A stretch of 24,411 nucleotides of DNA, from positions 1 to 24,411 of IMG/VR virus record IMGVR_UViG_3300023202_000218. The stretch is one strand, 5' to 3'. The notes below the pieces were generated by a model that saw nothing but the letters and a program-made list of their open reading frames with translations, did no database searches and was not told the DNA's origin. Within the stretch, counting starts at the first letter, position 1. Every line of letters starts with the position of its first letter. Below, in pieces: positions 319 to 23,170 of the stretch. The position numbers and the translations under genes were made by a program. This DNA comes from a virus.

Positions 319-3300
319 ATGAGTTTTGTCTTATTCGATAAATTAAGATTATTTTTCAAGAGTGGTAATGTATATGGTCATGAAAATTTGTTACAAAATC
401 AGCCTGATTTTAATAGAGTGTTGCGTGATAATGGCGAGGTAAATTTTTCTGACCCCAATTTCTTATTAGAGCAGACTAATGTTCAAATTAATCGCTTAGA
501 GCGTTATAAAGATTATGACCAAATGGATGAAGTTGGCGAAGTATCATTAGCATTGGATATGTATTGCTTGCATGGTAATACCAGAGTGCCACTATTGGAT
601 GGCACATGTCCAACAATTAAAGATCTAACTGCATTTGGTAAAAAGGAATTTTGGGTTTGTTCTTATGATGTTAAAAATGGTCAATATATATCAGCTAAGG
701 CTTATAATCCTCATGTAAGTGGTAGAAATGCCAATATGGTTGAGGTTTTATTTGATGATGGTTTAACAATAAAATGTACTCCAAATCATAAATTTTTAAC
801 AGACTCTGGGTTTATAGAAGCTAGAAATTTATGCAATGGCCAATCAGTCATTTCGTTACATAGAAATGCCTCTGTTGGTAATCATAAAGTTTCATCTGTT
901 GTTTCTTGTGAGGATGCTGAAGAAGTTTATGATTTATATGTAGAAAACCATCACAATTTTGCTGCAGGTGATGAAAAATCATGGGTGATAGTTCACAATA
1001 GTGATGAGGCATCATTAAGAGATCCAGAAAGAAACCATTCTGTTTTTGTTAAAACTGGTAGTGCTAGGTTAAAATTAGAAATTGAAGAGTTTTTATACGA
1101 GACTTGGAATGTTGATTCTCATGTTAGACCAATGACCCGATACTTGACAAAATATGGTGATTTACCTCTTGAGATAGTTCCTACTGTTAATAGAGATGGT
1201 GTTGCTCAAGTCAGACCAATGCAAGTTTATAACTTTACTAGAGTTGAAACTAAATATGGTGATTTGGTTGGTTTCTTCTTTCAAGAAGAAGGTGGAGAGC
1301 CAACATATTTACACCCATGGCAAGTTGCTCATATGAGGCTTACATCTTTTGAGCAAATATTTCATCCATACGGCAGGTCGATGTTAGATGGTGCTAGACG
1401 TGATTTCAGAAGATTAAGGTTAATGGAAGATGCTGCTTTGGTTTATCGTTTGTGTTTACGCGGTGATAGCAAAGTATGGGTTGCTGGTGGATATAAAGAA
1501 ATTAAAGACATTGAAGTTGGGGATGAAGTATACTCGTATGCAACTGATGGAAGTTTGAAGAAAGCCACAGTCACCAATCATGAGTGTAATGGTGAAGATA
1601 GAATTTATAGGGTATTTTCTGAGCATAGAGAAATATATGCCAATTCTACTCATCCCATATTAGTTGAAGAGAGATTTTATAATAATTGTAAATGGAATAG
1701 TTATTTTAGATATGTTGACGTAAAAGATTTGAAAACTGCGGCAAACACTAGGCATAAAGAATACTGCCACAGGTTTTTGTTACCAAGTCTGGATAATGGC
1801 GATGAATTGGTTAAGCTTAAAGTTTCAAATAATGTTGATTTTAGTGGTGTTGCTGATCAAGAATTTGCAAGATTTTTTGGGTTTATGATTGGGTGTGGAT
1901 TCATTTATGCCATTCATGGTCGTGAACACTGTACTGGATTTGTTGCTGGAGGTAATAATCATATAAATATTGAATATAAAAATATATTTAATAAGTATGT
2001 AAACGATTTGATAATAGACGCAAATCGTTCTAAATTTGGATCTTATCATACAACATCAATAGATTTTTGTAATTTTATGGTTAGAAATGGTTTTATTGTT
2101 AATAATGATATTAGGTCAGTACCTTCTTGGGTGTTTAAATCTCCACGATTTGTTCAAGAGTCGTTTATTGATGGCTATGTGGATGCCCACAATTATAGGC
2201 CTATTGATGGTAATTTAAATGAAGTTATTGAACTGGAAAGTTGTAGTAGATCGTTGATATATGACATCAAAGAGCTTCTACATAGGATTGGTTGGGATGT
2301 TGGGTTGGTTAAAGAAATAGATGATGGTGTTTTATATTCTTTATGTTTTAGAAAAGTTGAATCTTGTGACTCAGAGGTCATATTAGGAGTTGAAGAATTA
2401 GATAATGATTTGGTTTATGATATTAGCGTTGATAGTGATGAGCATAATTTTGTTGTTGATGGTGTTCCTGTTCATAATACTCGTGCTCCAGAGAAGAGAG
2501 TATTCAAGGTTCCTACTGGCAATTTACCACCGAAGGAACGTGAGCAGTACATTCAAATAATTGCTAGGAGATTTAAAAAGCACAAATTTATAGATCCAAC
2601 ATCTGGAGAGTTAAATGAAAGGTATGCCCCACACATTCAAGATGATGATTATTGGATACCTGTAACAAGTGATGGAAATGGCGTTGAAATTGAGACTTTA
2701 CAAGGTGCTGAAAATTTGGATGCCATTGCTGACATAGAATATTTTAAAAAGAAGATGGTATCAGCATTAAAAATACCATTCCATAGGGTTGGACTAGGAG
2801 AATCAACTGGCGATCCCGGTAAATCGATAGCATCTCAGTCTCCTGAATTTGCTAAGGCTGTTCAGTGGATTCAGGATCAGATGATCGTTGGGATAAAAAA
2901 GATAGTTTTAGTTCATTTGGCATTGAAAAATTATTCAATAGATCAAATGAAAAATTTTGAAATATCAATGACATCGGCAAGTGCAATAGATGAATTATAT
3001 CGCATTGAGACTTGGGCTAGCAGAGTTGATATAATGGGCGGGTTGAAGGATACTGGCATGTTTCCTGATGAGTGGATAGTCAGAAGATTTACTGATATGA
3101 CCGAAGATGAGCTTGAATTAATGAATATCACTAAAAAGATTCAGCAATCTGGTGATGGTGAAGAAGAAGATGAAAAAGACTTTTTTGAATATAATGAATT
3201 TAATAAATATAAAAAAATGTTGCTTGAGCATCGTTCAAATAGTGTTAGTGACTTGCACAATAAGATCGAAGAGGACATCAATAGGCATGGACATCATGAT

Positions 3301-3447
3301 AGCTTCCAAAAGATGATTAACGATAATGAATTTGATGGTTTTGGTGACGATCATTCATATTTGGAAGAAGAAGATGTCAAAGAGGCAAAAAATATAATAG
3401 AGGAAATACTGAAAGGCGAATTTGATGAGTCTGATTTACTTGTATAA
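319..3447 (+). CDS. 20: Portal vertex protein (T4 gp20-like) interrupted by two inteins
   Basis: The product is the dodecameric portal at the unique capsid vertex, through which DNA is packaged and to which the neck attaches. The reading frame is 1042 aa, but two in-frame inteins (residues 83-227 and 379-720) account for 487 of them. Spliced exteins would give 555 aa, close to T4 gp20 (524 aa). The extein after the second intein reads TRAPEKRVF, the hallmark of gp20-like portals, followed by a D-D-Y-W-I-P stretch and a G-A-E-N-L-D stretch matching gp20 order. The C-terminus is acidic. The ATG at 319 has a weak AGGG about 12 bp upstream. Function requires both splicing events. A 12-bp inverted repeat begins at the stop codon. 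Confidence 0.95.
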   Translation: MSFVLFDKLRLFFKSGNVYGHENLLQNQPDFNRVLRDNGEVNFSDPNFLLEQTNVQINRLERYKDYDQMDEVGEVSLALDMYCLHGNTRVPLLDGTCPTIKDLTAFGKKEFWVCSYDVKNGQYISAKAYNPHVSGRNANMVEVLFDDGLTIKCTPNHKFLTDSGFIEARNLCNGQSVISLHRNASVGNHKVSSVVSCEDAEEVYDLYVENHHNFAAGDEKSWVIVHNSDEASLRDPERNHSVFVKTGSARLKLEIEEFLYETWNVDSHVRPMTRYLTKYGDLPLEIVPTVNRDGVAQVRPMQVYNFTRVETKYGDLVGFFFQEEGGEPTYLHPWQVAHMRLTSFEQIFHPYGRSMLDGARRDFRRLRLMEDAALVYRLCLRGDSKVWVAGGYKEIKDIEVGDEVYSYATDGSLKKATVTNHECNGEDRIYRVFSEHREIYANSTHPILVEERFYNNCKWNSYFRYVDVKDLKTAANTRHKEYCHRFLLPSLDNGDELVKLKVSNNVDFSGVADQEFARFFGFMIGCGFIYAIHGREHCTGFVAGGNNHINIEYKNIFNKYVNDLIIDANRSKFGSYHTTSIDFCNFMVRNGFIVNNDIRSVPSWVFKSPRFVQESFIDGYVDAHNYRPIDGNLNEVIELESCSRSLIYDIKELLHRIGWDVGLVKEIDDGVLYSLCFRKVESCDSEVILGVEELDNDLVYDISVDSDEHNFVVDGVPVHNTRAPEKRVFKVPTGNLPPKEREQYIQIIARRFKKHKFIDPTSGELNERYAPHIQDDDYWIPVTSDGNGVEIETLQGAENLDAIADIEYFKKKMVSALKIPFHRVGLGESTGDPGKSIASQSPEFAKAVQWIQDQMIVGIKKIVLVHLALKNYSIDQMKNFEISMTSASAIDELYRIETWASRVDIMGGLKDTGMFPDEWIVRRFTDMTEDELELMNITKKIQQSGDGEEEDEKDFFEYNEFNKYKKMLLEHRSNSVSDLHNKIEEDINRHGHHDSFQKMINDNEFDGFGDDHSYLEEEDVKEAKNIIEEILKGEFDESDLLV
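565..999 (+). mobile_element. Mini-intein 1 in portal gene (145 aa, no endonuclease domain)
   Basis: The element runs from Cys83 (start of CLHGNTRVPLLDG, a block A pattern) to His226-Asn227, followed by Ser228 as the +1 nucleophile. Block B is visible as C-T-P-N-H with Thr154 and His157. Block F lies around E-E-V-Y-D-L-Y-V, and block G ends W-V-I-V-H-N. At 145 aa it has room only for the Hint splicing domain. It is inserted between extein residues ALDMY and SDEAS, a helical part of the portal conserved in this family. All residues needed for class 1 splicing are present, so it is probably active. Confidence 0.9.
1453..2478 (+). mobile_element. Large intein 2 in portal gene with degenerate LAGLIDADG domain (342 aa)
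   Basis: The element runs from Cys379 (CLRGDSKVWVAGG, block A) to His719-Asn720, followed by Thr721 as the +1 residue. Block F/G is seen as D-S-D-E-H-N-F-V-V-D-G-V-P-V-H-N. The middle carries a two-motif LAGLIDADG-type homing endonuclease, with FFGFMIGCG at residues 519-527 and IDGYVDAHN at 617-625. In both motifs the position of the catalytic aspartate is replaced (Cys526, His624), so splicing is probably intact while DNA cutting is probably lost. The block B region has N-S-T-H-P, where the usual Thr three residues before His is Asn. Insertion is directly in front of TRAPE, the most conserved point of the portal. Confidence 0.9.
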
Positions 3448-6042: not shown

Positions 6043-6684
6043 ATGCATTCTGCCACAACAACTAGTGGTAGGGTTATTCGTGATTATTCAACTTTTAAAT
6101 TAACTAAGGCTCCTGAAGTTGTTACTGAGCGTGTTAATGGAAATACTAAGAAATTTACTCGTCTTACTGGTTTGATTCAAAAAGCTGATACGCCAAACGA
6201 AAATGGTCGTGTATACCCCACAGAGGTAATGAGGGAGGCTATAGAAGCTCTTAGAGAGCCAATTGAACAGAGAATGGTTTTGGGTGAGCTAGATCACCCA
6301 GATGATGCTAAGATACATACCGAAAATGCTTGTTTATTGTTAACCAAAATATGGATGGAAGGAAAGGATGTATATGGTCAATTTGAAATATTAGAGGGCA
6401 TGCCTAAAGGGCAGATGTTAAAGTCATTGATGGATCAAGGTGTAACTATCTGCATAAGTAGTCGTGGTGTTGGAGATATGGAAATTGATTTGATGGAAGA
6501 TGGCTCTGAAGTCAATAAAGTTCTTCCTGGATTTAGGTTTGTGTGTTTTGATGCAGTAAATGAGCCTTCTGTTAAGGGAACTAAATTAAATGTTATGGAA
6601 AGTAAACAGCGTCGTGAAATTAATAAAAGACGCAAGATTACTGAAAATAGGTTGATTGATGCTATGAAAAGTTATTTGAATTAA
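6043..6684 (+). CDS. 21: Prohead core protease (T4 gp21-like, peptidase S77 type)
   Basis: This serine protease is assembled inside the prohead, where it cleaves scaffold and capsid proteins before packaging. The segment TPNENGRVYP, the motif GELDHP (catalytic His at residue 85) and ISSRGVGDM (catalytic Ser at 139 or 140) match the gp21 family in order and spacing. The length of 213 aa is normal. The ATG at 6043 is preceded by GAAGGA (6031-6036) at good spacing. An in-frame ATG at 6007, 11 bp after the upstream stop, would add 12 residues but has only a weak ribosome site, so the start is uncertain. The neighbours are acidic proteins on both sides and the scaffold and capsid genes downstream, which are its expected substrates. 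Confidence 0.92.
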   Translation: MHSATTTSGRVIRDYSTFKLTKAPEVVTERVNGNTKKFTRLTGLIQKADTPNENGRVYPTEVMREAIEALREPIEQRMVLGELDHPDDAKIHTENACLLLTKIWMEGKDVYGQFEILEGMPKGQMLKSLMDQGVTICISSRGVGDMEIDLMEDGSEVNKVLPGFRFVCFDAVNEPSVKGTKLNVMESKQRREINKRRKITENRLIDAMKSYLN

Positions 6685-6745
6685 TTTGCCTGTTTCTTGT
6701 ATATTAACTTACACAATTGAGAATCATTCTGGCATATGTAGGTAA

Positions 6746-6781
6746 TTTATATCTTTTATGGTCATAAATAAAAGATATAAA
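6746..6781 (+). other. AT-rich perfect inverted repeat (13-bp stem, 10-nt loop)
   Basis: The arms tttatatctttta (6746-6758) and taaaagatataaa (6769-6781) are perfectly complementary, in the 146-bp gap after the protease gene. The loop and right arm include CATAAATA (6763-6770), one mismatch from the T4 late-promoter sequence TATAAATA. The site could therefore be a late promoter, an RNA hairpin, or both. The next start is 50 bp downstream. Confidence 0.45.
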
Positions 6782-6830
6782 AACTGTTTGGTTCATGCAA
6801 AAATAACTAAAGACAACATTGGAGAACAAT

Positions 6831-8078
6831 ATGTCAGAACGTCTTGCTATTCTTAAAGCTCTTAATGAAGAGTTAGGCATGGAAAAAGCTCCTGGTGACG
6901 GGGTACAAGATCGTAATATTGATAACGATCTAAAATTTTCAAATAATGAAAAGGAAAAAGGATTTAAACTGTCTGGCGATGGTAAGACAGTTGGCGGAAG
7001 TTCTGGTGGTGTTACTGAGAGTGCTATATCTAAGGCAGACGGCACTGGTGTTGCTAAACGCAGCCCGCATCAAGTTAGTGGCACAGATGCCACAGGCGCA
7101 CCGACTAATAATGGCGCAGAAGATGGCCATGGTTGTGCTGTTGATCGTGCTGATGGATCTGCGGTTGCAAGTTCTAAAGCTAAGAAATCGGATGGTAAGT
7201 CATCTAGCGGTGGCATAAGCGCCAAAGCTGTGTCTAAGGCACGAGGAAGTGGTGTCGCTTCAAGAGATGGTGGTACTGATGGGATGGAAAAACATGTGAG
7301 AGAAAATCGTAAAATCATAGAATTACCACATGATACAATGGTTGAGGCCGATGACGGAACTATTAAAACATTATCTAAGGGAACTAAAATTATTATAGGT
7401 GAAGATGGAATGGGAATGGGATTGGGATATGATGATACAAATAATATGGATTATGATGACACAAATAGTATGGATTATCAAAGTGATGCAGATTATGAAA
7501 ATGGTATGAGTGATTGTATTGATGATGATTCGATAGCAAAAATTGTAACTGCTGTTGTTCAGGCTTTAAATGGTTCTGGAAGTTATGATTATGCAATGGA
7601 AGGCAAAGAAATACTGCCTGAATGTTTGGTAGAAGATGTTAAGAAGATTCTTGGTGAGGGTAAGCCATGGGAAGATGATGAAGATCCACATGCTGCTGCC
7701 TTAGGTAGGAAAGATGATGATGAGCAGGATACTGCTGGGCCTGAGGATGATGAAGATCCACATGCTGCTGCCTTAGCTCGTAAAGAGAGTAGGGATAATA
7801 GATTTGGAAGAACCATAAAAGAGCGTGGTTCATATTGTGAAGATGAAGAAGAAGCTGATGGTATTGATGCTATAGGGGATGATAGCACTGATGAATCTAG
7901 TCCTAATTATATAGCAGCTTTAATTGATGATGTTCAAGATGATTTTGATAATTTAAAAGGTGCTTTAGGATTTGATGACGATGATGAAGAATACGACGAT
8001 GACGATGAAGAAGATGTTGATTTAGAAGGAGATGGGGAAGAAGACGAAGAAAAAGCTGATGTAGATAATTTGTTCTAA
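6831..8078 (+). CDS. Acidic, low-complexity head-module protein with internal repeats, 415 aa
   Basis: I do not recognise the family. It sits between the protease and the scaffold, so an internal prohead or virion component is inferred. Residues 1-20 form a short helix (MSERLAILKALNEELGM). A Gly/Ser/Ala/Lys region then carries three related units (AISKADGTGVAKR, AVDRADGSAVASS, AVSKARGSGVASR). A small ordered segment near 157-190 (E-L-P-H-D-T-M-V-E-A-D-D-G-T) precedes an Asp/Tyr/Met-rich stretch, and the C-terminus is almost entirely Asp/Glu. A 31-bp identical direct repeat (7674-7704 and 7746-7776) encodes DDEDPHAAAL twice. The start at 6831 has GGAGA at 6821-6825. A TTG at 6819 is also in frame but less likely. 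Confidence 0.75.
   Translation: MSERLAILKALNEELGMEKAPGDGVQDRNIDNDLKFSNNEKEKGFKLSGDGKTVGGSSGGVTESAISKADGTGVAKRSPHQVSGTDATGAPTNNGAEDGHGCAVDRADGSAVASSKAKKSDGKSSSGGISAKAVSKARGSGVASRDGGTDGMEKHVRENRKIIELPHDTMVEADDGTIKTLSKGTKIIIGEDGMGMGLGYDDTNNMDYDDTNSMDYQSDADYENGMSDCIDDDSIAKIVTAVVQALNGSGSYDYAMEGKEILPECLVEDVKKILGEGKPWEDDEDPHAAALGRKDDDEQDTAGPEDDEDPHAAALARKESRDNRFGRTIKERGSYCEDEEEADGIDAIGDDSTDESSPNYIAALIDDVQDDFDNLKGALGFDDDDEEYDDDDEEDVDLEGDGEEDEEKADVDNLF
7674..7776 (+). repeat. 31-bp identical in-frame direct repeat, 72-bp period
   Basis: Positions 7674-7704 and 7746-7776 are identical over 31 bases, encoding DDEDPHAAAL in both. The offset of 72 bp is 24 codons, so the frame is kept. Flanking codons also match in sense (G/A-R-K). 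This looks like a recent tandem duplication in the acidic tail. Confidence 0.85.
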
Positions 8079-8151: not shown

Positions 8152-8478
8152 ATGCCAAAATCAAAAAAAGCCAAAAAGATAATGAAAGATTTTAAAGATC
8201 AGTATGGTGAAGAAGAAGGTGAAAAAGTCTATCATGCGACTGCCAACAAACAAAATAGGGATCCCGATACATTTAAAAAAGAATCTTTAAGATTAGTTGA
8301 TGATGTAATTATTGAATATGATGGCAAAATGATTACATTACAGTCTGGATCATTGTTTGAAACTGTTGGATCTGGTGCTATAGCATTGATCCCAGCGCCA
8401 TTAGAAGATGAAGAGGAAGATGAAGAGGTCGAAGAAGCTTCTAATTCTCAATTGTCTAATCTTCAGCAGGACCATTAA
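8152..8478 (+). CDS. Small head-module protein, basic N-terminus and acidic C-terminus, 108 aa
   Basis: The N-terminus (PKSKKAKKIMKDFKDQYGEE, then G-E-K-V-Y-H-A-T-A-N-K) is a motif I recall from small phage proteins of unknown function, in which a K-K-x-M-x-x-F/M-K-x-Q-Y-G unit is followed by a Y-A-T-A-N unit. Residues about 52-80 are a short beta-rich stretch (I-I-E-Y-D-G-K-M-I-T-L). The tail is a run of Glu/Asp followed by a Gln/Asn-rich end. The start at 8152 is fixed by GGGAG at 8141-8145. An in-frame ATG at 8125 falls inside the hairpin and is unlikely. Position suggests a role in prohead assembly, without direct evidence. Its 3' end overlaps the converging minus-strand gene by 23 bp. 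Confidence 0.75.
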   Translation: MPKSKKAKKIMKDFKDQYGEEEGEKVYHATANKQNRDPDTFKKESLRLVDDVIIEYDGKMITLQSGSLFETVGSGAIALIPAPLEDEEEDEEVEEASNSQLSNLQQDH

Positions 8479-9097
8479 TAATAGCATAATTTAAGTCATT
8501 GGTATAAATAAAATCTTTATAATAATGTTCAATAAATAATTCTTTTTCTTTAGAATAATTATAGTCAAATAGATATTTATTTTTAATAAGTGCATCAAAT
8601 TCATATGGTGGAACAGCATGTCCAATTATATGTTCAATATTTAATTTTGATAATTTATTTTTAAGTTTATTGTTTTTTTGGTGCAAGCGTACTCTACTTC
8701 CTAAAACTTTACCACGATATTTTGGGTCCCGCCATTTTTCTTTTAGTCCTTCGCTTACCATTTTTCGATAGTTAGAATTTAACCAGTTGTTTTTACTTCT
8801 TTGTTTGGCTTTTTGTAAATTATCATGATTAGAATAATATTTTTTTACGCTTTTGCTTATTTGATCTGCATTTTTTATATTATTTAAGATAGCTTTTTGG
8901 CTCATTCTTTCCTTAACATTTGGATCTGATAACGATTTTATTGATAATTGTCTTTGTTTGTTTTTGTAGCTTTCTGATTGTGTTCGTATTCGTATTTTGC
9001 ATTTGCGACATATAAAAGTTTCACAGTCGTGGTTGTTAAACCATGATTTTTTAAACTCATAGTCAGTATTGCATTTGTTGCATGTTACTTTTGGCAT
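8456..9097 (-). CDS. Putative free-standing homing-type endonuclease (zinc ribbon, NUMOD3-like repeats), 213 aa
   Basis: The gene runs against all head genes and sits between them, as free-standing homing genes often do. The N-terminus has a zinc ribbon (Cys6, Cys9, Cys30, Cys33). Residues about 50-135 hold repeated S-x-K-x-x-x-W-x-D/N-x-x-Y-R segments (N-W-L-N-S-N-Y-R; K-W-R-D-P-K-Y-R) like the NUMOD3 DNA-binding units of phage endonucleases. The C-terminus (I-E-H-I-I-G-H-A-V-P-P-Y-E-F-D-A-L-I) resembles the start of a Vsr/EDxHD-type nuclease core, but the family's usual later acidic and His residues are not clear. Activity is therefore uncertain. There is no ribosome site upstream of the ATG. 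It overlaps the end of the preceding + gene by 23 bp. Confidence 0.65.
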   Translation of the reverse strand: MPKVTCNKCNTDYEFKKSWFNNHDCETFICRKCKIRIRTQSESYKNKQRQLSIKSLSDPNVKERMSQKAILNNIKNADQISKSVKKYYSNHDNLQKAKQRSKNNWLNSNYRKMVSEGLKEKWRDPKYRGKVLGSRVRLHQKNNKLKNKLSKLNIEHIIGHAVPPYEFDALIKNKYLFDYNYSKEKELFIEHYYKDFIYTNDLNYAIINGPAED

Positions 9098-10004: not shown

Positions 10005-11525
10005 ATGAAAACCAAACCAAACCATCGTCAAGCGACTTTAATTGCTGAGGCAAAATCCAACAAGCAGGTAAATCGTTGGGCCAAAGTCATCAACAAGATG
10101 CCTGAGGTCAAGTCCAAGTCTAAGATGTCATTAATGGCAGCTATCTTGGAAAACCAGCATACTCACATGATCGGTGATGGTAAGCCTCAGAGCAGCTTAC
10201 TTACTGAGAATTCTCAGGCCGTGTCGACTGGCAATATTGCTGACTTTACCCGTTTTGCTCTGCCTCTTCTTCGCAAGAGCTATCCTAAGCTGATATCTGA
10301 CAACTTGGTCGGTGTTCAGCCTATGAGCCAGCCTGCTAGCTTGCTCTTCTACATCCGTTATCGTTACGCCTTAGCCAAGGGTCAGACTGCTGCTGGTACG
10401 CAGATCATGCGTCAGAACACCAGTCAGTCTTTCTCTCGTCAGAACGGTTGGGCTCTTGATCCGTACTACAGCAGCCAGACTGTTAAGGATGAGTCTCTGA
10501 CAATTGCTGGTGGTGTGATCAGTGGTAACCTCGTTCACAAGCCGATTCTTGCTGGCACTGTCGTGGTTAACGTCTTTGCTGAGGATACCGATAGCTGTGA
10601 TACTCCTGATCCGTTGCTTCAGGTAACATTCGATGCTAGTGGTACTCCTGATGTGGTTGTTCAGTCCGATGATGTGACCACTGCTTTGAGTGTTGATACT
10701 GGTAGTTCCAGTTTCAACAATGATTCTGGTGATGTCACTGTCACTCTTACAGGTGGTAGTCTTCCTGCTGGCGCTTTTGCTACAGTAGATTATGAATTCG
10801 ATCTGGAAAATAACCCATTCCAGCCAGAAGTTACTCTCAGCATCGATAGTGATAGTGTTTCTGCTATCACCCGTAAGTTGAAGACTTCTTGGAGTCTCGA
10901 AGCTGCTCAGGATCTCAAGTCGGTGCACAATATCGATGCCGAGGCTACCCTGACAGATCTGCTTGGCGACGAGATTGTTGCTGAGATCGATCGTGAAATC
11001 ATCAACGACCTTATCATCGCTTCCAGCATTCGTGCAACTCACAACTTCGCAACTGCGGCTGGTGCTTCTGTGAACTTCGTGGACCGCAACATCGCGTTGC
11101 TCTACAAGACTCTGGAAGTTGCCAATGTCATCCACCGTACCACTCTGCGTGGTCCGGCCAACTGGATGGTAACCAGCGCTGATATTGCTTCCAAGTTTGA
11201 GCAACTCAATGACTTCCGTGGCAGCGATGCTCTTGCTACTGATGGTATCGACATTGGTATTACCAATGCTGGTTCTATCCAGGGTAAGATGAAGCTTTAC
11301 AAGGATCCGCTCTTTCCGAACTGTAAGATCTTAATGGGCTTCAAGGGTAATAGCGCTCTGGATTCTGGCTACTTCTACGCCCCGTACATTCCGCTGCTTA
11401 GCACCCCGACTGTACTTGATCCTAATAGTTTCACTCCGAATAAAGGCGTGATGACGAGGTACGGCAAAAAACTTATCGAGGATGGCGGTCTGTTTTACGC
11501 GACAATCAATGTTAGCAACTTGTAG
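10005..11525 (+). CDS. 23: Major capsid protein (T4 gp23-like)
   Basis: This is the hexamer-forming HK97-fold shell protein. Residues around 80-120 (FTRFALPLLRKSYPKLISDN, then L-V-G-V-Q-P-M-S-Q-P) match the gp23 signature 'vrraiPnLi...D..GVQPM..P'. Residues near 288-330 (T-R-K-L-K-T-S-W-S-L-E-A-A-Q-D-L-K) match the gp23 R-K-L-K-A-x-Y-T-I-E-L-A-Q-D-L segment. The length of 506 aa is close to T4 gp23 (521). The basic, helical N-terminal 68 residues end in LLTE (Glu68), a good gp21-type cleavage site where T4 cuts after Glu65. A Val/Thr/Asp-rich segment (about 185-265) looks like a surface insertion. Two AAGG motifs precede the start. Base composition is clearly higher in GC. A strong terminator follows. 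Confidence 0.95.
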   Translation: MKTKPNHRQATLIAEAKSNKQVNRWAKVINKMPEVKSKSKMSLMAAILENQHTHMIGDGKPQSSLLTENSQAVSTGNIADFTRFALPLLRKSYPKLISDNLVGVQPMSQPASLLFYIRYRYALAKGQTAAGTQIMRQNTSQSFSRQNGWALDPYYSSQTVKDESLTIAGGVISGNLVHKPILAGTVVVNVFAEDTDSCDTPDPLLQVTFDASGTPDVVVQSDDVTTALSVDTGSSSFNNDSGDVTVTLTGGSLPAGAFATVDYEFDLENNPFQPEVTLSIDSDSVSAITRKLKTSWSLEAAQDLKSVHNIDAEATLTDLLGDEIVAEIDREIINDLIIASSIRATHNFATAAGASVNFVDRNIALLYKTLEVANVIHRTTLRGPANWMVTSADIASKFEQLNDFRGSDALATDGIDIGITNAGSIQGKMKLYKDPLFPNCKILMGFKGNSALDSGYFYAPYIPLLSTPTVLDPNSFTPNKGVMTRYGKKLIEDGGLFYATINVSNL

Positions 11526-11530
11526 TAATA

Positions 11531-11572
11531 GCATGAAAAAACCCCGAAGTAATATTCGGGGTTTTTTCATGC
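11531..11572. terminator. Strong rho-independent terminator after the capsid gene, symmetrical
   Basis: The arms 11531-11548 (gcatgaaaaaaccccgaa) and 11555-11572 are perfectly complementary over 18 bp with a 6-nt loop. A GC core (CCCCG/CGGGG) is followed by TTTTTT, giving termination of + transcripts. The opposite arm is A6, so the structure also ends minus-strand transcription. It closes the head-gene operon. Confidence 0.9.
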
Positions 11573-11582
11573 TTTGTATATG

Positions 11583-11770
11583 CAAATTGTAAATTATTGT
11601 ACTTTTTATGTTGTCATGATTAGTTATAGACACTTGTAATTGCTATTTACGGTTTGCAATGCTGGTGCTCTTGTGTATTGACTGTGTTGCAAATTGTAAA
11701 TAATGTTTATAAATTCTGTTTGTAGTTAAAAGTGTTGTTAGTGGTTAAATGTGCATTACAAATTGTAAAT
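11583..11770. repeat. Cluster of four 12-14 bp repeats (three direct CAAATTGTAAAT, one inverted variant)
   Basis: CAAATTGTAAAT occurs exactly at 11583-11594, 11690-11701 and 11759-11770. A fourth, inverted copy at 11645-11658 reads tgcaaaccgtaaat on the minus strand, two mismatches from tgcaaattgtaaat. All lie in the gap between the capsid terminator and the HNH gene. The last copy ends 3 bp before a TTGACA box. This suggests binding sites for a regulator or a mobile-element recognition region. Confidence 0.7.
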
Positions 11771-11773
11771 ATA

Positions 11774-11801
11774 TTGACAAATGATAAAATTCTGATAAAG
11801 T
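11774..11801 (+). promoter_or_regulatory. Possible sigma70-type promoter for the HNH-methyltransferase pair
   Basis: A perfect TTGACA (11774-11779) is followed after 16 bp by TAAAGT (11796-11801, 4 of 6 matches to TATAAT). The predicted transcript would begin at or just after the ATG at 11808, so the message would be nearly leaderless or translation would start later. The adjacent CAAATTGTAAAT copy would overlap the -35 region if bound. Confidence 0.35.
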
Positions 11802-11807
11802 ACATTT

Positions 11808-12758
11808 ATGATAGACTGGGAAAAATCGAAGAGTTTATTTGGGACTGAAGAGAGTAATCTGACCAAAAAGTCGAGATTGTGGTTTAAGTGTGCCAATTGC
11901 GGTAAAGAGTATGCAATGGCATACAAAACTGTGATGGAAAGAAAAAGGTGCAAGCGGAACAAGTGTAAATTTTGTGCTAACAGGGTTTTAACGGATCAAC
12001 AAAGAGAAGAAAGAACTAGTGGGTATTACACAAAGAAATCGAGGGATAAATCAGGCCGAAAGGAGCTGTATAAAATTTGGTTAAATAAAAAAGAAGGTGA
12101 TATCGAGTTATTTGTTAAAAGTAAAGTATATTCTTCCCTAAATGAAGACAAAAGAACAAATAGGATTGGCAACATCACTACAGACTTCATCATGGGAATG
12201 TTGGAAGCTCAGTCGTGGAGATGTAAGTTATCCAATATCAATCTTTTACATAGAAGATCACTAAATAGCCTGTCAATAGATAGGATAAGTAATGATAGTG
12301 GGCATACTAAGGGTAACGTCCAGTTGATTTGTCGTGGTTTGAATATTGCAAAAAACAAGCATACAAATGATGACATAATCCAGTTTTTGAACTGTTTGTG
12401 TAAAGTTGATAAGTTTATAACTGAAAGGTTTTCTAGGGATTACCTTTCAGTTATAAAAAGGAATAGTCAACAGAGAGATAAATCAAAAAATCTTGATAAT
12501 AATTTAACAACTAATGGAATCATAAAAATTTTTGAAAGGCAAAATGGGTTGTGTTCTATAACAGGTCTACCAATGGCATGTTATCAACATCCATGTTTTA
12601 GTTGTTCTATAGACCGCCTAAATAATGATTTGGGCCATACTGAAGACAACGTTCATCTTGTTCTTAAATGTATCAATAGAGCTAAATCTAAGTTTGCTGT
12701 TGATCAAGTGATCAAATGGCTAAATGACATCAAGGAATGCTATGGAAAATCTAGTTGA
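11808..12758 (+). CDS. Twin-HNH endonuclease with zinc ribbon, 316 aa
   Basis: A zinc ribbon (Cys28, Cys31, Cys53, Cys56) leads into two copies of the same phage HNH-type unit. Unit 1 (about 125-195) has Cys139, S-I-D-R at 156-159, G-H-T at 165-167, N-V-Q-L-I and N-I-A-K-N-K. Unit 2 (about 233-307) has Cys249, S-I-D-R at 267-270, G-H-T at 276-278, N-V-H-L-V and N-R-A-K-S-K. This S-I-D-R...G-x-T-x-x-N-V pattern is typical of phage HNH homing nucleases. Two catalytic units in one chain would allow double-strand cutting from one polypeptide. There is no clear ribosome site. The stop overlaps the methyltransferase start by 17 bp, implying coupled translation. Role: homing nuclease, or nuclease half of a restriction-modification-like pair. 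Confidence 0.8.
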   Translation: MIDWEKSKSLFGTEESNLTKKSRLWFKCANCGKEYAMAYKTVMERKRCKRNKCKFCANRVLTDQQREERTSGYYTKKSRDKSGRKELYKIWLNKKEGDIELFVKSKVYSSLNEDKRTNRIGNITTDFIMGMLEAQSWRCKLSNINLLHRRSLNSLSIDRISNDSGHTKGNVQLICRGLNIAKNKHTNDDIIQFLNCLCKVDKFITERFSRDYLSVIKRNSQQRDKSKNLDNNLTTNGIIKIFERQNGLCSITGLPMACYQHPCFSCSIDRLNNDLGHTEDNVHLVLKCINRAKSKFAVDQVIKWLNDIKECYGKSS

Positions 12759-13911
12759 AGATTATAAAAAAATGAGTTTACGTCAGATGGCTGAAAAATA
12801 TGGAGTTTCAGCCATGACTATAAAAAAGAGGCTTAATAAATTAGGTGTTGATACTAGTTATAAGAAGTCTATGCGCCCACCTTTGTTAAATGACAAAAGT
12901 CTATTAAAAAAACAAATTGATGATGGCAAATCTTTTAGTGATATAGCCAAGTCAGTTGGAGTTGATAAAAGAACCGTTGAAGCTGCATTGAATAGAAAAA
13001 ATGAAGAAGAGATTTATTATTATAATTGGAGAAAGCATTTTAAATCCAGTCAACAGTGCAGTAAGTGGCTGTTGAAATTTGGGTTTAAACACCCAAGATA
13101 TGATGACAGTGAGTTAGTTAAGTTTTTGCATAACATGTTAAAAGTTGAACCGACGTTTAATGCTAATCATAACAGCCAACACACAACCAATTTTATCAAG
13201 AATTTTTCTGAACATTTTTATTATTCAACGCATAAAGGATACAATTGTGTTCCAGATGCTTGGAGCAAAGGGAATAATATTGTTCTAAAAAAAGCAGTCA
13301 AAATGATGTGGGAGCACAATAAAAATTGTAATATTTTTAATTTGATAAACGTAATAGCGCGGCATTTTAGAGATTTCGCTACTGTGTCTATCTTCAAACC
13401 ATGGGTTGCATCATATATCTACAATAAGTATCTCCCAAATGGTGGTGTCGTTGTCGATCCCTGCATGGGTTGGGGCGGTAGGTTGCTTGGATGTCTGGAG
13501 AAAAACATTAGTTATCATGGGTATGATTTAAATCCCAACGCGATAGAGTCACACCGTAATTTAAGGAAATTTTTGGGTGGTAGACTTGGTGAAGTCTCAT
13601 TCACTAATGCAGACTCATCTTTGATAGAATTCCCAAAGTGTGATCTGGTGTTTACATCTCCACCATACGACGATACCGAGCATTACCATGGAATTGACTC
13701 TAGTAAGACTATTACTAAACCCATACTGAACAACATATTTGGTAGTGACAATAGATTGATCGTTTTGAATTTGCCAAAAAGGCAAGAAGATTTATGCCAT
13801 GCTTGTGCGGTTGAGCATGGGTATCGTTTACAAGAAAGATTGGAAATGAAAACTGCCTCGTTTATGGGTCGTGAAAAAACTCATGAACCCATACTGGTAT
13901 ACCGCAAATAG
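12742..13911 (+). CDS. DNA methyltransferase with two N-terminal HTH units, 389 aa
   Basis: The enzyme transfers methyl from SAM to an exocyclic amine in DNA. Motif I is V-V-V-D-P-C-M-G-W-G-G-R (residues 236-247), with motif X-like S-I-F-K-P-W-V-A just before it and catalytic motif IV T-S-P-P-Y at 305-309. The order I then IV without a large gap is gamma-like; TSPPY is common in N4-cytosine and some N6-adenine enzymes, so the target base is open. Residues 1-40 and 48-85 are two HTH units (S-L-R-Q-M-A-E-K-Y-G-V-S; S-F-S-D-I-A-K-S-V-G-V-D), unusual for a phage methylase. The ATG at 12742 has AAGGA at 12732-12736; an upstream in-frame ATG at 12724 lacks one. It overlaps the HNH gene. It may protect phage DNA or mark sites cut by its neighbour. 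Confidence 0.85.
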   Translation: MENLVEDYKKMSLRQMAEKYGVSAMTIKKRLNKLGVDTSYKKSMRPPLLNDKSLLKKQIDDGKSFSDIAKSVGVDKRTVEAALNRKNEEEIYYYNWRKHFKSSQQCSKWLLKFGFKHPRYDDSELVKFLHNMLKVEPTFNANHNSQHTTNFIKNFSEHFYYSTHKGYNCVPDAWSKGNNIVLKKAVKMMWEHNKNCNIFNLINVIARHFRDFATVSIFKPWVASYIYNKYLPNGGVVVDPCMGWGGRLLGCLEKNISYHGYDLNPNAIESHRNLRKFLGGRLGEVSFTNADSSLIEFPKCDLVFTSPPYDDTEHYHGIDSSKTITKPILNNIFGSDNRLIVLNLPKRQEDLCHACAVEHGYRLQERLEMKTASFMGREKTHEPILVYRK

Positions 13912-14065: not shown

Positions 14066-15091
14066 GTGTGCATGGCTAGATTAAGACAACCACTAGAAGA
14101 CCAATTTACAGATGATCAGAAGAAAGAGATTATCGACGATTATGAAAATGGAATGACACAAGAAGAGATTGGTAAGAAATTTGGTTTACCACGTCGATCT
14201 GTTATGAAGTTGTTAAAGAGGCTTGGAATTGAAACACGTAATAACATAGAAGCACAGAAGTCAAGATTTGATACAGATTTTGTTGATAAAGTTAAAGAAC
14301 TGCGAACTAAGGGAAATACTTTGCAGCAAATTGCTGATCTAACTAATAGGTCTACTTCTGCAGTTGCTAGAGTTTGTCAGAAATTTAAAATTGATGAGGC
14401 ACCAAAAATCAATGTTGATGAAAAATTGGTATGTGATGATTACCAGTTTATGTCTTTAAATAAATTATCTGACAAGTTTAATATTAGTAGTCATGTTGTT
14501 AAACAAATATTATTGAAAAATAATATAAAAATTAGAGATCCAGTTATGAGTGGTGGAAGGACTATTAAAATATCGGAAATAGTTTTACCTCATTTTGAAG
14601 ATACTTATGATTGGTGGAAAGACGCATATGATGCTTATGGAATGTCTTCCATAGCTAAATTTTTAGGCAGATCTATTGGTTTTGTATCTCATAAATTGAA
14701 AAATTATTGTATAGATATTAAAACTATTTCTGATAGGCAAACAGAATTTGACAAGGATGAATTAGTTAAAGCTTATAAGCATCATGGTAGCATGTCTAAA
14801 GTGGCAAAAAGATTTAATTGTACTATCACAACTGTTTCTAATGCGCTTAGTGCTCATGAAATAATTCCTACGACTGCTTCTGAAATGTTTTGTGGTGAAG
14901 GTAACCATTTTTATGGGAAAGAACATTCCAAAGATATTAAGGAGTATTGCAAAGAGATAGGAACAAAATCTGGCAAACAATTTTGGATTGATCATCCAGA
15001 GTATGTGGAAGTTGTTAAAGAGAAGCAGAGAAAATATTGGTCTGATATTACCAAAAGATATGAAGCAAATTATGATCTGCAGAATAATTAA
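14066..15091 (+). CDS. Protein with five tandem HTH units and NUMOD3-like tail, no nuclease domain, 341 aa
   Basis: Five successive HTH-like segments are readable: residues 14-58, 68-113, 115-160, 183-220 and 228-270. Each has the pattern hydrophobic-x-x-I-A/G-x-x-F/hydrophobic-x-x-S/T-x-x-x-V-x-x-x-L-x-x-x-x-I. Residues 278-297 (G-N-H-F-Y-G-K-E-H-S) match the NUMOD3 motif N-P-M-Y-G-K-x-H-S of homing nucleases, and K-Y-W-S-D-I-T-K-R near 323-331 is a second such repeat. No catalytic domain follows, and the protein ends at 341. It is probably a DNA-binding relic or regulator derived from a homing gene. There is no ribosome site before 14066; an ATG at 14072 is equally possible. The 154-bp gap upstream shows no gene. 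Confidence 0.75.
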   Translation: MCMARLRQPLEDQFTDDQKKEIIDDYENGMTQEEIGKKFGLPRRSVMKLLKRLGIETRNNIEAQKSRFDTDFVDKVKELRTKGNTLQQIADLTNRSTSAVARVCQKFKIDEAPKINVDEKLVCDDYQFMSLNKLSDKFNISSHVVKQILLKNNIKIRDPVMSGGRTIKISEIVLPHFEDTYDWWKDAYDAYGMSSIAKFLGRSIGFVSHKLKNYCIDIKTISDRQTEFDKDELVKAYKHHGSMSKVAKRFNCTITTVSNALSAHEIIPTTASEMFCGEGNHFYGKEHSKDIKEYCKEIGTKSGKQFWIDHPEYVEVVKEKQRKYWSDITKRYEANYDLQNN

Positions 15092-15329: not shown

Positions 15330-15578
15330 ATGCCTAAAAAAGATAGACTCAATTTCCGAGTTCGTCCAGAACTCAAAACATTGTTAGAGAGGGCAGCTGC
15401 GATTAAGGGGATCACAGTAAGTGAATTCGCTTTGAGTACACTAGGTGCCACTGCTGAGGATGTAATTAAGCAGCATGAAACGCTTGTGATCACAGAGAAG
15501 GACCGTGAGGTTTTTATGTCTGTGCTATCTGATGATAGCCCATTACCTAAATCATGGAATGGTGAATTAGATATCTAA
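15330..15578 (+). CDS. Orphan TacA/DUF1778-type antitoxin, 82 aa
   Basis: In bacteria TacA-type antitoxins bind DNA through an N-terminal ribbon-helix-helix and neutralise a GNAT toxin that acetylates aminoacyl-tRNA. Here R-L-N-F-R-V-R-P-E-L-K-T-L-L-E-R-A-A (6-23) followed by G-I-T-V-S-E-F-A (27-34) is the RHH. The C-terminal toxin-binding tail has I-T-E-K-D-R-E-V-F (54-62) and L-P-K-S-W (72-76) as in the family. The length is typical. The ribosome site AAGGA lies just upstream of the ATG. No GNAT toxin gene is adjacent on either side; the next gene is a nucleotidyltransferase 162 bp on. It could serve as a regulator, or neutralise a host toxin as a phage countermeasure. Confidence 0.8.
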   Translation: MPKKDRLNFRVRPELKTLLERAAAIKGITVSEFALSTLGATAEDVIKQHETLVITEKDREVFMSVLSDDSPLPKSWNGELDI

Positions 15579-21466: not shown

Positions 21467-22426
21467 TCAACATTTTAAGAATTCTTCTAAGCGATCCCAT
21501 TTTCGATTTAATAACTTGTATTTGTATGTTATTAATATTTTGTATAGTTTTATAGCGTCAGATCCAGCAATTTCGTATGCGGCATAATACTTTGATCTTG
21601 GTTTTGTATAGATTTTGCGTGGTGGAATATTAAATTGTGTTATGCGTTCTCTAAGCCATTCAATTAGTACTTGAGACCCACTGCATATTCTGACACGTGG
21701 AACTTTGCGTATTGTTTTGCGTGATTTTAGATTTAAGATGCCAATTGATCCATCTCCTTCTATGAATCCTATGAGAAATTGGCAAAATTGATCGTCAGAT
21801 AAATGCTGTAGGTTTGATGTAATCTTGAATTCATATGTTTTGTTTGGAATTAAACCCCATGTTTCTAATTCCATGGCGACATGACGTGGAATCGATAAGT
21901 CTAATCTATTACAATTATTTTTCTTAACAACATGTATTTTTTGTTGCGGATAGATAATATCTCTAAAGAATTCTAAAATATGATTGTCATTTCTGTGGAC
22001 TGTTAATATTGCTGATACTCCTCTATTGCGGTTATCTCGGCGTTTGTGATATATGCAACCATCAGCCAACATCCATCCAAGCCAGTAGAAAAACAGTTGT
22101 TGTTTAACATCAATAAAAGACCAGTCGCCTTTATTTTGTGGTGCTGTAATGGTGTTTATGCCATTTCTTTTTAATAATTCTGACATTCCCGTAATTGAAT
22201 ATCCATGTTCAGAAGCTAGTTTTGTAACGGAGATTCCTTCATTGAATTGCTTAAGTATTTTATCTAAAGAACCGGTTTTAATATGCGAGGAAGAATTGGA
22301 TCTACATGATACTCCCATTTTGTGTAAGTGCTTATAAATGACTGGTGGTGTAACATGTGAAAGGCGTGCTATGGCATACGCTGACAATCCATTATTGTAT
22401 GCTTCTATCCACTCGGCTTTATTCAT
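21467..22426 (-). CDS. LAGLIDADG homing endonuclease with two N-terminal HTH units, 319 aa
   Basis: Two intact dodecapeptide motifs are present: W-L-G-W-M-L-A-D-G (115-123, Asp122) and L-I-G-F-I-E-G-D-G (218-226, Asp225). Each keeps the metal-binding Asp, so a monomeric double-strand endonuclease is expected. Residues 1-40 (L-S-A-Y-A-I-A-R-L-S-H-V-T) and 50-90 (I-S-V-T-K-L-A-S-E-H-G-Y-S) are HTH units. It is free-standing, not inside an intron or intein. The frame continues upstream to 22576, but that part is antisense to thymidylate kinase; the ATG at 22426 leaves 27 bp between the two divergent starts. The ribosome site is weak. Confidence 0.85.
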   Translation of the reverse strand: MNKAEWIEAYNNGLSAYAIARLSHVTPPVIYKHLHKMGVSCRSNSSSHIKTGSLDKILKQFNEGISVTKLASEHGYSITGMSELLKRNGINTITAPQNKGDWSFIDVKQQLFFYWLGWMLADGCIYHKRRDNRNRGVSAILTVHRNDNHILEFFRDIIYPQQKIHVVKKNNCNRLDLSIPRHVAMELETWGLIPNKTYEFKITSNLQHLSDDQFCQFLIGFIEGDGSIGILNLKSRKTIRKVPRVRICSGSQVLIEWLRERITQFNIPPRKIYTKPRSKYYAAYEIAGSDAIKLYKILITYKYKLLNRKWDRLEEFLKC

Positions 22427-22453
22427 ATACCATTTTTGATGGAGGTGTGTTAC

Positions 22454-23170
22454 ATGGGAAACGGATTTCAAATATGCATAGAAGGTTGTGATGGCAGTGG
22501 CAAAAGTGCAATAGTAATTGAATTGGCAAAATGGATAGCCAATGAGATTGGTATTAAGACAATCAATACTAGACACCCTGGATCTACCTTGCTTGGTGCA
22601 GAGTTACGACGAATCATAGCTGATCGAGAACTTGGTGTTGATCATCAAGCGCGAGCTTTGTTATTTGCTGCGGATAATGCAGCATATATTTCAACAATTT
22701 TGATACCAAAAATGAAAGACGATTATTGTGTGGTTGCAGATCGCAACAATTTTATAAGTAGCTTCGCTTATCAAATTGCTGATGGGTGTTCATTAGATAT
22801 TCTTAAAAAAATTCATAGTGCTACTTACAATCTTGATTTGGTACCAAAAATAGACATTCTGTTTATTCTTCGTGTATCTTATGAGACTGCCGTAAATAGA
22901 CGAGAAGAAAGATCGTCAATTGAAAAGGCTGAACATTTTGAGAAAAAAATGATGTCTCATAGTTTTTTTAATAGGGTTTCTTGTGCTTATGATGATTTAC
23001 CGAACCACTTAGAATGGCTTTTAAAATTTGTTAAGGCTAAAGGTGATACCCCACATATTGTGTATATTGATGCTAATAGAACATTTGATATTGTGTTGCA
23101 TGATGTTAAAGAGGCAATTAGACCATTATTGAAGAACTTAATAAACACGGGACGGCCTGATGGCAGCTGA
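22454..23170 (+). CDS. tmk: Thymidylate kinase (dTMP kinase), 238 aa
   Basis: The enzyme phosphorylates dTMP to dTDP. The P-loop is G-C-D-G-S-G-K-S (11-18). The substrate-binding R-H-P-G-S-T (40-45) and the A-D-R-N-N-F-I-S-S-F-A-Y-Q segment (95-107) match the family's DRY/DR-motif region. The lid (R-E-E-R-S-S-I-E-K-A-E) is present. Length is slightly above that of bacterial Tmk (about 210). GGAGGT (22441-22446) fixes the start at 22454; in-frame ATG 22439 and TTG 22436 lie before or in that site. Together with DHFR it points to thymidine-nucleotide supply. Its last 11 bp overlap the next gene. Confidence 0.9.
   Translation: MGNGFQICIEGCDGSGKSAIVIELAKWIANEIGIKTINTRHPGSTLLGAELRRIIADRELGVDHQARALLFAADNAAYISTILIPKMKDDYCVVADRNNFISSFAYQIADGCSLDILKKIHSATYNLDLVPKIDILFILRVSYETAVNRREERSSIEKAEHFEKKMMSHSFFNRVSCAYDDLPNHLEWLLKFVKAKGDTPHIVYIDANRTFDIVLHDVKEAIRPLLKNLINTGRPDGS

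Follow-up and report, generated by a model that had tools for sequence, protein, structure and literature searches.

We analysed a virus record of 24.4 kb (24,411 nt; hereafter the window) in which a twin HNH-like nuclease gene and an HTH-methyltransferase (HTH-MTase) gene sit directly after a T4-type major capsid gene. This gp23-type gene (10005-11525, + strand; Pfam PF07068, 8.4e-79) anchors the hotspot described below. The closest gp23 of a described phage is only 40% identical to it, so the window phage belongs to an essentially uncultured clade, and contigs related to the window reach 370-395 kb. We considered the high GC content of gp23 (48%, against about 33% in its flanks) as a sign of co-conversion and rejected the idea, as every relative measured likewise has a gp23 of higher GC content than the sequence around it.

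Other genes of the window are of separate note. The portal gene (319-3447) encodes a product of 1042 aa that matches the portal profile only over residues 721-949; the protein is about twice the size of the profile and has an extra N-terminal part. Directly upstream, positions 2-304 encode the C-terminal end of another Mom-like protein (47% to the Mom protein of contig L105), a second modifier gene adjoining a virion gene. A zinc-finger protein lies between head genes on the minus strand (8456-9097), with no PHROG match at 0.001; L002 carries a similar minus-strand protein at 1830-2459, and the gene is possibly another free-standing mobile gene. Further downstream are a TacA1-type antitoxin-like protein (15330-15578; Pfam 4.6e-17) and, on the minus strand, an HTH-LAGLIDADG endonuclease (21467-22576; PHROG_4645, 9e-20) with intact ADG and EGDG motifs, whose gene overlaps the start of a plus-strand thymidylate-kinase-like ORF.

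The first gene of the pair (11808-12758, +) encodes 316 aa, with an N-terminal zinc-ribbon-like segment and two HNH-like modules, defined by alignment and by the strands and helix of the model, at 12160-12370 (+; core residues about 119-187) and 12511-12745 (+; core residues about 235-312). Two stretches of the protein match PHROG families of endonuclease and endonuclease VII (1.3e-25 and 5.5e-21), and its PHROG matches also include Srd/sigma-decoy families. An AlphaFold2 model (mean pLDDT 86) contains two beta-beta-alpha modules, and the top Foldseek matches, weak throughout (best E 0.03), are mostly HNH enzymes, including the Gme HNH nickase, the HNH domain of Cas9 and, as the best structural match, PacI. 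Pfam HNH models gave no match to the protein; nor did the PADLOC, NCBIfam and Pfam restriction models, which leaves it without a match to a known restriction enzyme family in these libraries. A sequence search of solved structures returned no meaningful nuclease or DNA-MTase match. Both modules contain the pattern S-[IVA]-D-R-[ILV]-x-N...N, and in the alignment the D-R and the downstream N are kept in both modules of all nine homologues. By comparison with PacI, Hpy99I and Endo VII, the D and N are expected to be metal ligands. The general-base His that follows the metal-binding Asp is absent, with D-R in the place of the D-H of Endo VII; catalysis is therefore not assured, and the modules are best called "HNH-like". 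The two HNH units named in the first-pass annotation are thus recovered as modelled modules under a more cautious label; one or both may be inactive, and nuclease activity of the protein is plausible rather than assured.

The second gene (12742-13911, +) is predicted from ORF, Pfam, alignment and model evidence to encode an HTH-MTase of 389 aa, or 395 aa from the first ATG at 12724. The ATG at 12742, preceded by AAGGA and aligned with the start Met of the L002 homologue, is the better start, and translation probably begins at this position. Both ORFs lie where the first-pass annotation had placed them. The 17-bp overlap that it reported holds from 12742, as it does in L002 and L180; from 12724 the overlap would be 35 nt. 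Its description of an MTase with an address domain of its own also stands: a two-HTH DNA-binding region (12763-12999, +) matches Pfam HTH_23 and HTH_24 above cut-off and is seen in the alignment, and motifs I (DPCMGWGGR) to IV (TSPPY) span 13453-13680 (+) by alignment. DPxxGWGGR and TSPPY, the motifs I and IV of amino-MTases, are invariant in MTase family A, to which the protein belongs, and its model (pLDDT 88) has a class I MTase fold. PADLOC gave only weak matches, to mad2/MTase_II. Because of motif IV and the nuclease partners, DNA is the presumed substrate; RNA could conceivably be used, the fold matches being to generic class I enzymes. Distant relatives of the MTase in Staphylococcus and Vibrio phages lie in replication and nucleotide-metabolism neighbourhoods, where no directly adjacent gene is annotated as a nuclease.

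A strong intrinsic terminator (11530-11573, +; 19-bp stem, 6-nt loop, T tail) would separate the cassette from capsid transcription and leaves it a leader of its own of about 240 nt. Similar hairpins follow gp23 in L002 and L180; terminator-like sites in the region as a whole show no excess over shuffles. The motif CAAATTGTAAAT occurs three times within 283 nt, on the plus strand at 11583-11594, 11690-11701 and 11759-11770, the last within the 20-mer TTGTAAATATATTGACAAAT that is identical in L002, and nowhere else in the window even with one mismatch. By chance a mean of 0.74 matches per whole window is expected, and 2 of 100 shuffles reach three anywhere. The L180 leader has four copies in both orientations and that of L002 one or two, one being the near-palindrome TTGTAAATGTATTTACAA; leaders of other cassette types lack the motif, except for a single one-mismatch match in L154. 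The last copy in the window abuts the TTGACA of a candidate sigma70-type promoter (TTGACA-16-TAAAGT, 11774-11801, +), a type of match that is not above shuffles in the region, and L002 has the consensus TTGACA-17-TATAAT at the matching place. The simplest reading of the leader motif is an operator that the HTH-MTase may bind. As a genome-wide target we provisionally reject it: across the complete L002 and L105 records, the matches outside the leader are only scattered and all have one mismatch, and in L105 these are fewer than in a reversed control.

We searched for the same gene pair in other phages, as the first-pass annotation had proposed. A single twin-HNH sequence found no match in the viral contigs scanned, and a three-sequence profile was needed to find relatives there. 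With profile scans of viral contigs we recovered L002, L004/L005, L015 and L018, and a scan of genome contigs added L180. In these five further independent phage contigs (six with the window) the two genes overlap, by 17 nt in L002 and L180, 14 nt in L004/5 and 28-29 nt in L015 and L018; L002 is 62% identical to the window in both proteins. The pair is therefore not a one-off. Twin-HNH genes also adjoin MTases of a sister family, family B, in L012, L103 and L017. In the six contigs, nuclease and MTase genes are adjacent and inherited together, as in type II restriction-modification (RM) systems. The first-pass annotation had named the occurrence of the two genes only separately in relatives as a finding against a joint unit; instead, overlapping pairs recur, and elsewhere the MTase is itself fused to a nuclease. 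The gp23-linked cassettes L180 and L181 come from two Lokiarchaeota MAGs, into which their short contigs had been binned; they reflect either mis-binned phage contigs or a true association.

The MTase-nuclease fusions are the strongest evidence, by sequence comparison, that the pair may form a single nuclease-plus-modification unit. Family-A MTases are fused to PD-(D/E)XK domains with an intact D...ExK in L003, L016, L092, L096, L097, L099, L100, L101, L103 and L142, and to LAGLIDADG in L093. In family B the partner is LAGLIDADG (L017, L123, L124, L131 and L157), a single HNH (L115, L122 and L167) or a PD-(D/E)XK-like domain (L156, L173 and L181), and in neighbours similar nucleases are fused to a Mom modifier. 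Where PD-(D/E)XK and MTase share one chain, one address must serve both. These single-chain fusions and the window MTase have HTH pairs that align, which is why we propose that the HTH-MTase guides the twin-HNH protein.

The fused nuclease tends to be missing where a twin-HNH gene is present. Beside the twin-HNH gene it is deleted in the window, L002 and L180, decayed in L004, reduced to scars in L015 ("QPYDFDGEYED") and L018, and absent in L012; in L103 both LAGLIDADG catalytic acids are mutated (SRG, DGGG), whereas all other LAGLIDADG fusions have ADG or ADA and DGDG. Counting twin-HNH neighbours within 70 nt of the MTase gene, an intact fused nuclease is missing from 8 of 10 units with such a neighbour and from 1 of 21 others (Fisher p 4.7e-5). 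The PD-(D/E)XK-MTase gene of L142 is excluded from the count as ambiguous; the twin-HNH gene that follows it after 50 nt overlaps the next unit. Exceptions to the tendency are L017 and the second L142 unit, with an intact LAGLIDADG, and L102 has neither nuclease in the part seen. Strict mutual exclusion, weakened by L017 and L142, is thus kept as a tendency. Corrected on the tree, the pattern reduces to 5 parsimony changes, with 3 of 4 supported independent pairs as expected (sign test p 0.25, with too few pairs for significance), and the data do not reject a single family-A origin for the twin-HNH form (p-AU 0.051). With only about 3-5 independent events after correction for relatedness, replacement of the fused nuclease is only suggestive.

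The position of the cassette is shared more widely. Because a count over all loci is biased by the searches that found them, we recounted occupancy in 46 non-redundant loci from a gp23-only scan, each with 1.2 kb or more of downstream sequence and chosen without reference to the cassette. A nuclease plus a modifier follows gp23 in 24 of these, a modifier only in 3, a nuclease only in 8 and neither in 11. A set of 51 loci, among them some that were found through the cassette, has cassette domains after gp23 in 40 cases and before it in 2. L105 is 79% identical to the window in DNA through gp22-gp23, and the similarity ends at the gp23 stop codon, beyond which L105 continues with ORFs for a single-HNH protein, a helicase-like protein and a Mom protein. 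This difference, together with the 11 loci lacking cassette domains, is an insertion polymorphism beside a conserved gene of the kind associated with homing.

The contents of the slot vary. Mom fusions in L002, L144 and L179 occupy it or the next gene, the slot itself being taken in L179 by a LAGLIDADG-Mom protein. At this position the distant phage L009 (484 kb) carries genes for a zinc-finger-Vsr-MTase and a Mom-like protein, and L107, L117 and L145 have single-HNH genes after gp23 without a modifier. In L163 an XamI-type restriction endonuclease lies just after gp23 (6598-7371; Pfam 1.5e-28), with no MTase within 3.5 kb by the MTase profiles used. The window pair itself contains no Mom (GNAT-like) domain. 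The next gene of the window (14066-15091, +; 341 aa) encodes an HTH-array/NUMOD3-like protein that is 60% identical to the address half of the L002 HTH-PD-(D/E)XK-Mom protein; its nuclease and Mom halves are missing, a search just downstream found no remnant of them, and the gene is probably a truncated second cassette. The L002 gene after the MTase carries NUMOD3. As regards folds of the homing type, the window cassette has HNH-like modules, but it carries its HTHs on the MTase gene and lacks the base His; relatives in the same slot have LAGLIDADG (PF14528).

Together, these comparisons favour reading the pair as one nuclease-plus-modification unit, a self-protecting RM-like or homing cassette in a hotspot, to which we assign a probability of roughly 0.7. 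Comparison thus gives good support to the core of the first-pass interpretation, one functional unit that is RM-like or homing; that the proteins cleave and methylate DNA, share a target, form a complex and serve interference and homing is our inference. The HTH-MTase would place its mark at a specific sequence of the phage genome itself, and DNA without the mark would be cut by the twin-HNH protein, which the HTH-MTase probably steers or binds. The cassette would belong to a class in which, immediately downstream of gp23, PD-(D/E)XK, LAGLIDADG and single or twin HNH nucleases are interchangeable beside a modifier (either MTase subfamily or Mom), frequently accompanied by HTH arrays. Its most likely use would be attack on the unmarked DNA of co-infecting related phages; repair would probably copy the cassette into the cut genome, and the modifier would spare its own carrier.

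A broader proposal is that such loci are self-protecting mobile endonuclease cassettes, in which homing-type nucleases carry their own DNA modifier as immunity, nuclease folds, modifiers and HTH addresses are freely exchanged at one post-capsid slot, and the TTGTAAAT leader repeats are the operator or recognition site of the window HTH-MTase, making the locus an evolutionary bridge between homing and RM. We hold this tentatively, at somewhat less than even odds. Doubtful, yet a serious contender, is a pure phage-borne RM or interference weapon without homing, a fixed cargo destroying unmarked rival-phage or host DNA. It would account for a modifier that is kept while nucleases are exchanged and for the XamI-type enzyme in the L163 slot, and the same role has been predicted for Mom-REase fusions (PMC7824862); a homing nuclease already acts as an interference weapon in phage Phi-PA3 (PMC11620839). 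Against a purely fixed cargo speak features typical of mobile endonuclease genes: nucleases of the classic homing type (LAGLIDADG, HTH/NUMOD3) are among those found, the site beside a conserved gene is fixed, and the contents turn over between close relatives. Sequence does not separate homing from a weapon, and both may be true, as for Phi-PA3 gp210 (PMC11620839).

The remaining explanations do away with the joint unit or with the nuclease, and we regard each as unlikely. Orphan MTases are often carried by phages, and two independent genes, an anti-restriction MTase directed against host enzymes and a selfish homing HNH, might share one hotspot with their overlap reflecting packing; the Staphylococcus and Vibrio relatives that lack an adjacent annotated nuclease gene and the modifier-free single-HNH genes after gp23 are in keeping with this. 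The strongest counter-argument is that the MTase families are repeatedly fused to three nuclease folds in single chains, and the loss of the fused nuclease where the twin HNH is present points the same way. Alternatively, the twin-HNH protein could be inactive as a nuclease, a decayed homing enzyme now serving the MTase as a DNA-binding or regulatory subunit that provides specificity. The replacement of D-H by D-R in both modules of 9/9 homologues and the Srd/sigma-decoy matches fit such a role, and one of the two modules may be structural; yet the D and N expected to bind metal are conserved in both, PacI, the best structural match, uses Tyr and not His as its base (PMC4081073), and the fused nucleases that the twin HNH seemingly replaced keep intact active sites.

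If the preferred reading of one cutting-and-marking unit is right, a single phage locus links homing endonucleases and RM, which are usually treated apart, and makes their part swapping visible. The cutter-plus-marker combinations at the post-gp23 spot suggest an exchangeable, self-protecting weapon or selfish element. Should the modifier protect its carrier, this would explain how a phage can keep a potent nuclease while its own target stays intact, and would offer a route for such genes to become phage-versus-phage weapons. The locus also provides many ready nuclease/modifier pairs for side-by-side determination of specificity.

The first-pass annotation knew of no standard system with this layout. 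The exact twin-HNH/HTH-MTase pair was indeed not found in the literature searched, and the parts of the open-licence literature covered hold no report of LAGLIDADG-MTase fusions, of this pair or of the post-gp23 hotspot, which is weak evidence; the claim is qualified by Mom-REase fusions, type IIG enzymes and HNH/Endo VII-type restriction genes beside methylases, all of which are related. HNH/Endo VII-type restriction genes adjoining methylases, and type IIG enzymes, were already known. The principle is not new either, because Mom-REase fusions in jumbo phages have been predicted to cut host or superinfecting phage DNA while self DNA is protected (Iyer et al. 2021, PMC7824862). Like those fusions, the window cassette joins a nuclease to a DNA modifier in gp23-type large phages; unlike them, its modifier is a TSPPY-type MTase, its nuclease is a separate overlapping twin-HNH gene, and its relatives carry a fused PD-(D/E)XK, LAGLIDADG or HNH domain. 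Relatives such as L003 and L093 resemble type IIG enzymes in combining nuclease, MTase and recognition region in one chain, whereas the window unit is split into two genes and its address is an N-terminal HTH array rather than a C-terminal or separate S module; type IIG models in the libraries used gave no match. As in Hpy99I-type systems, a beta-beta-alpha-metal nuclease is paired with an MTase, and as in PacI the nuclease departs from a His base. In contrast to both enzymes, the window protein has two tandem HNH-like modules, is phage-borne and has an HTH-MTase partner, and its sequence has no detectable similarity to Hpy99I or PacI. Homing endonucleases are normally protected from themselves by disrupted or diverged sites, and to our knowledge no free-standing phage homing endonuclease carries a modification enzyme of its own. 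Insertion beside a conserved virion gene and rapid turnover are shared with those free-standing genes (HTH-LAGLIDADG, HNH and F-CphI-type), whose nuclease folds and HTH/NUMOD3 modules also occur among the cassettes of the slot.
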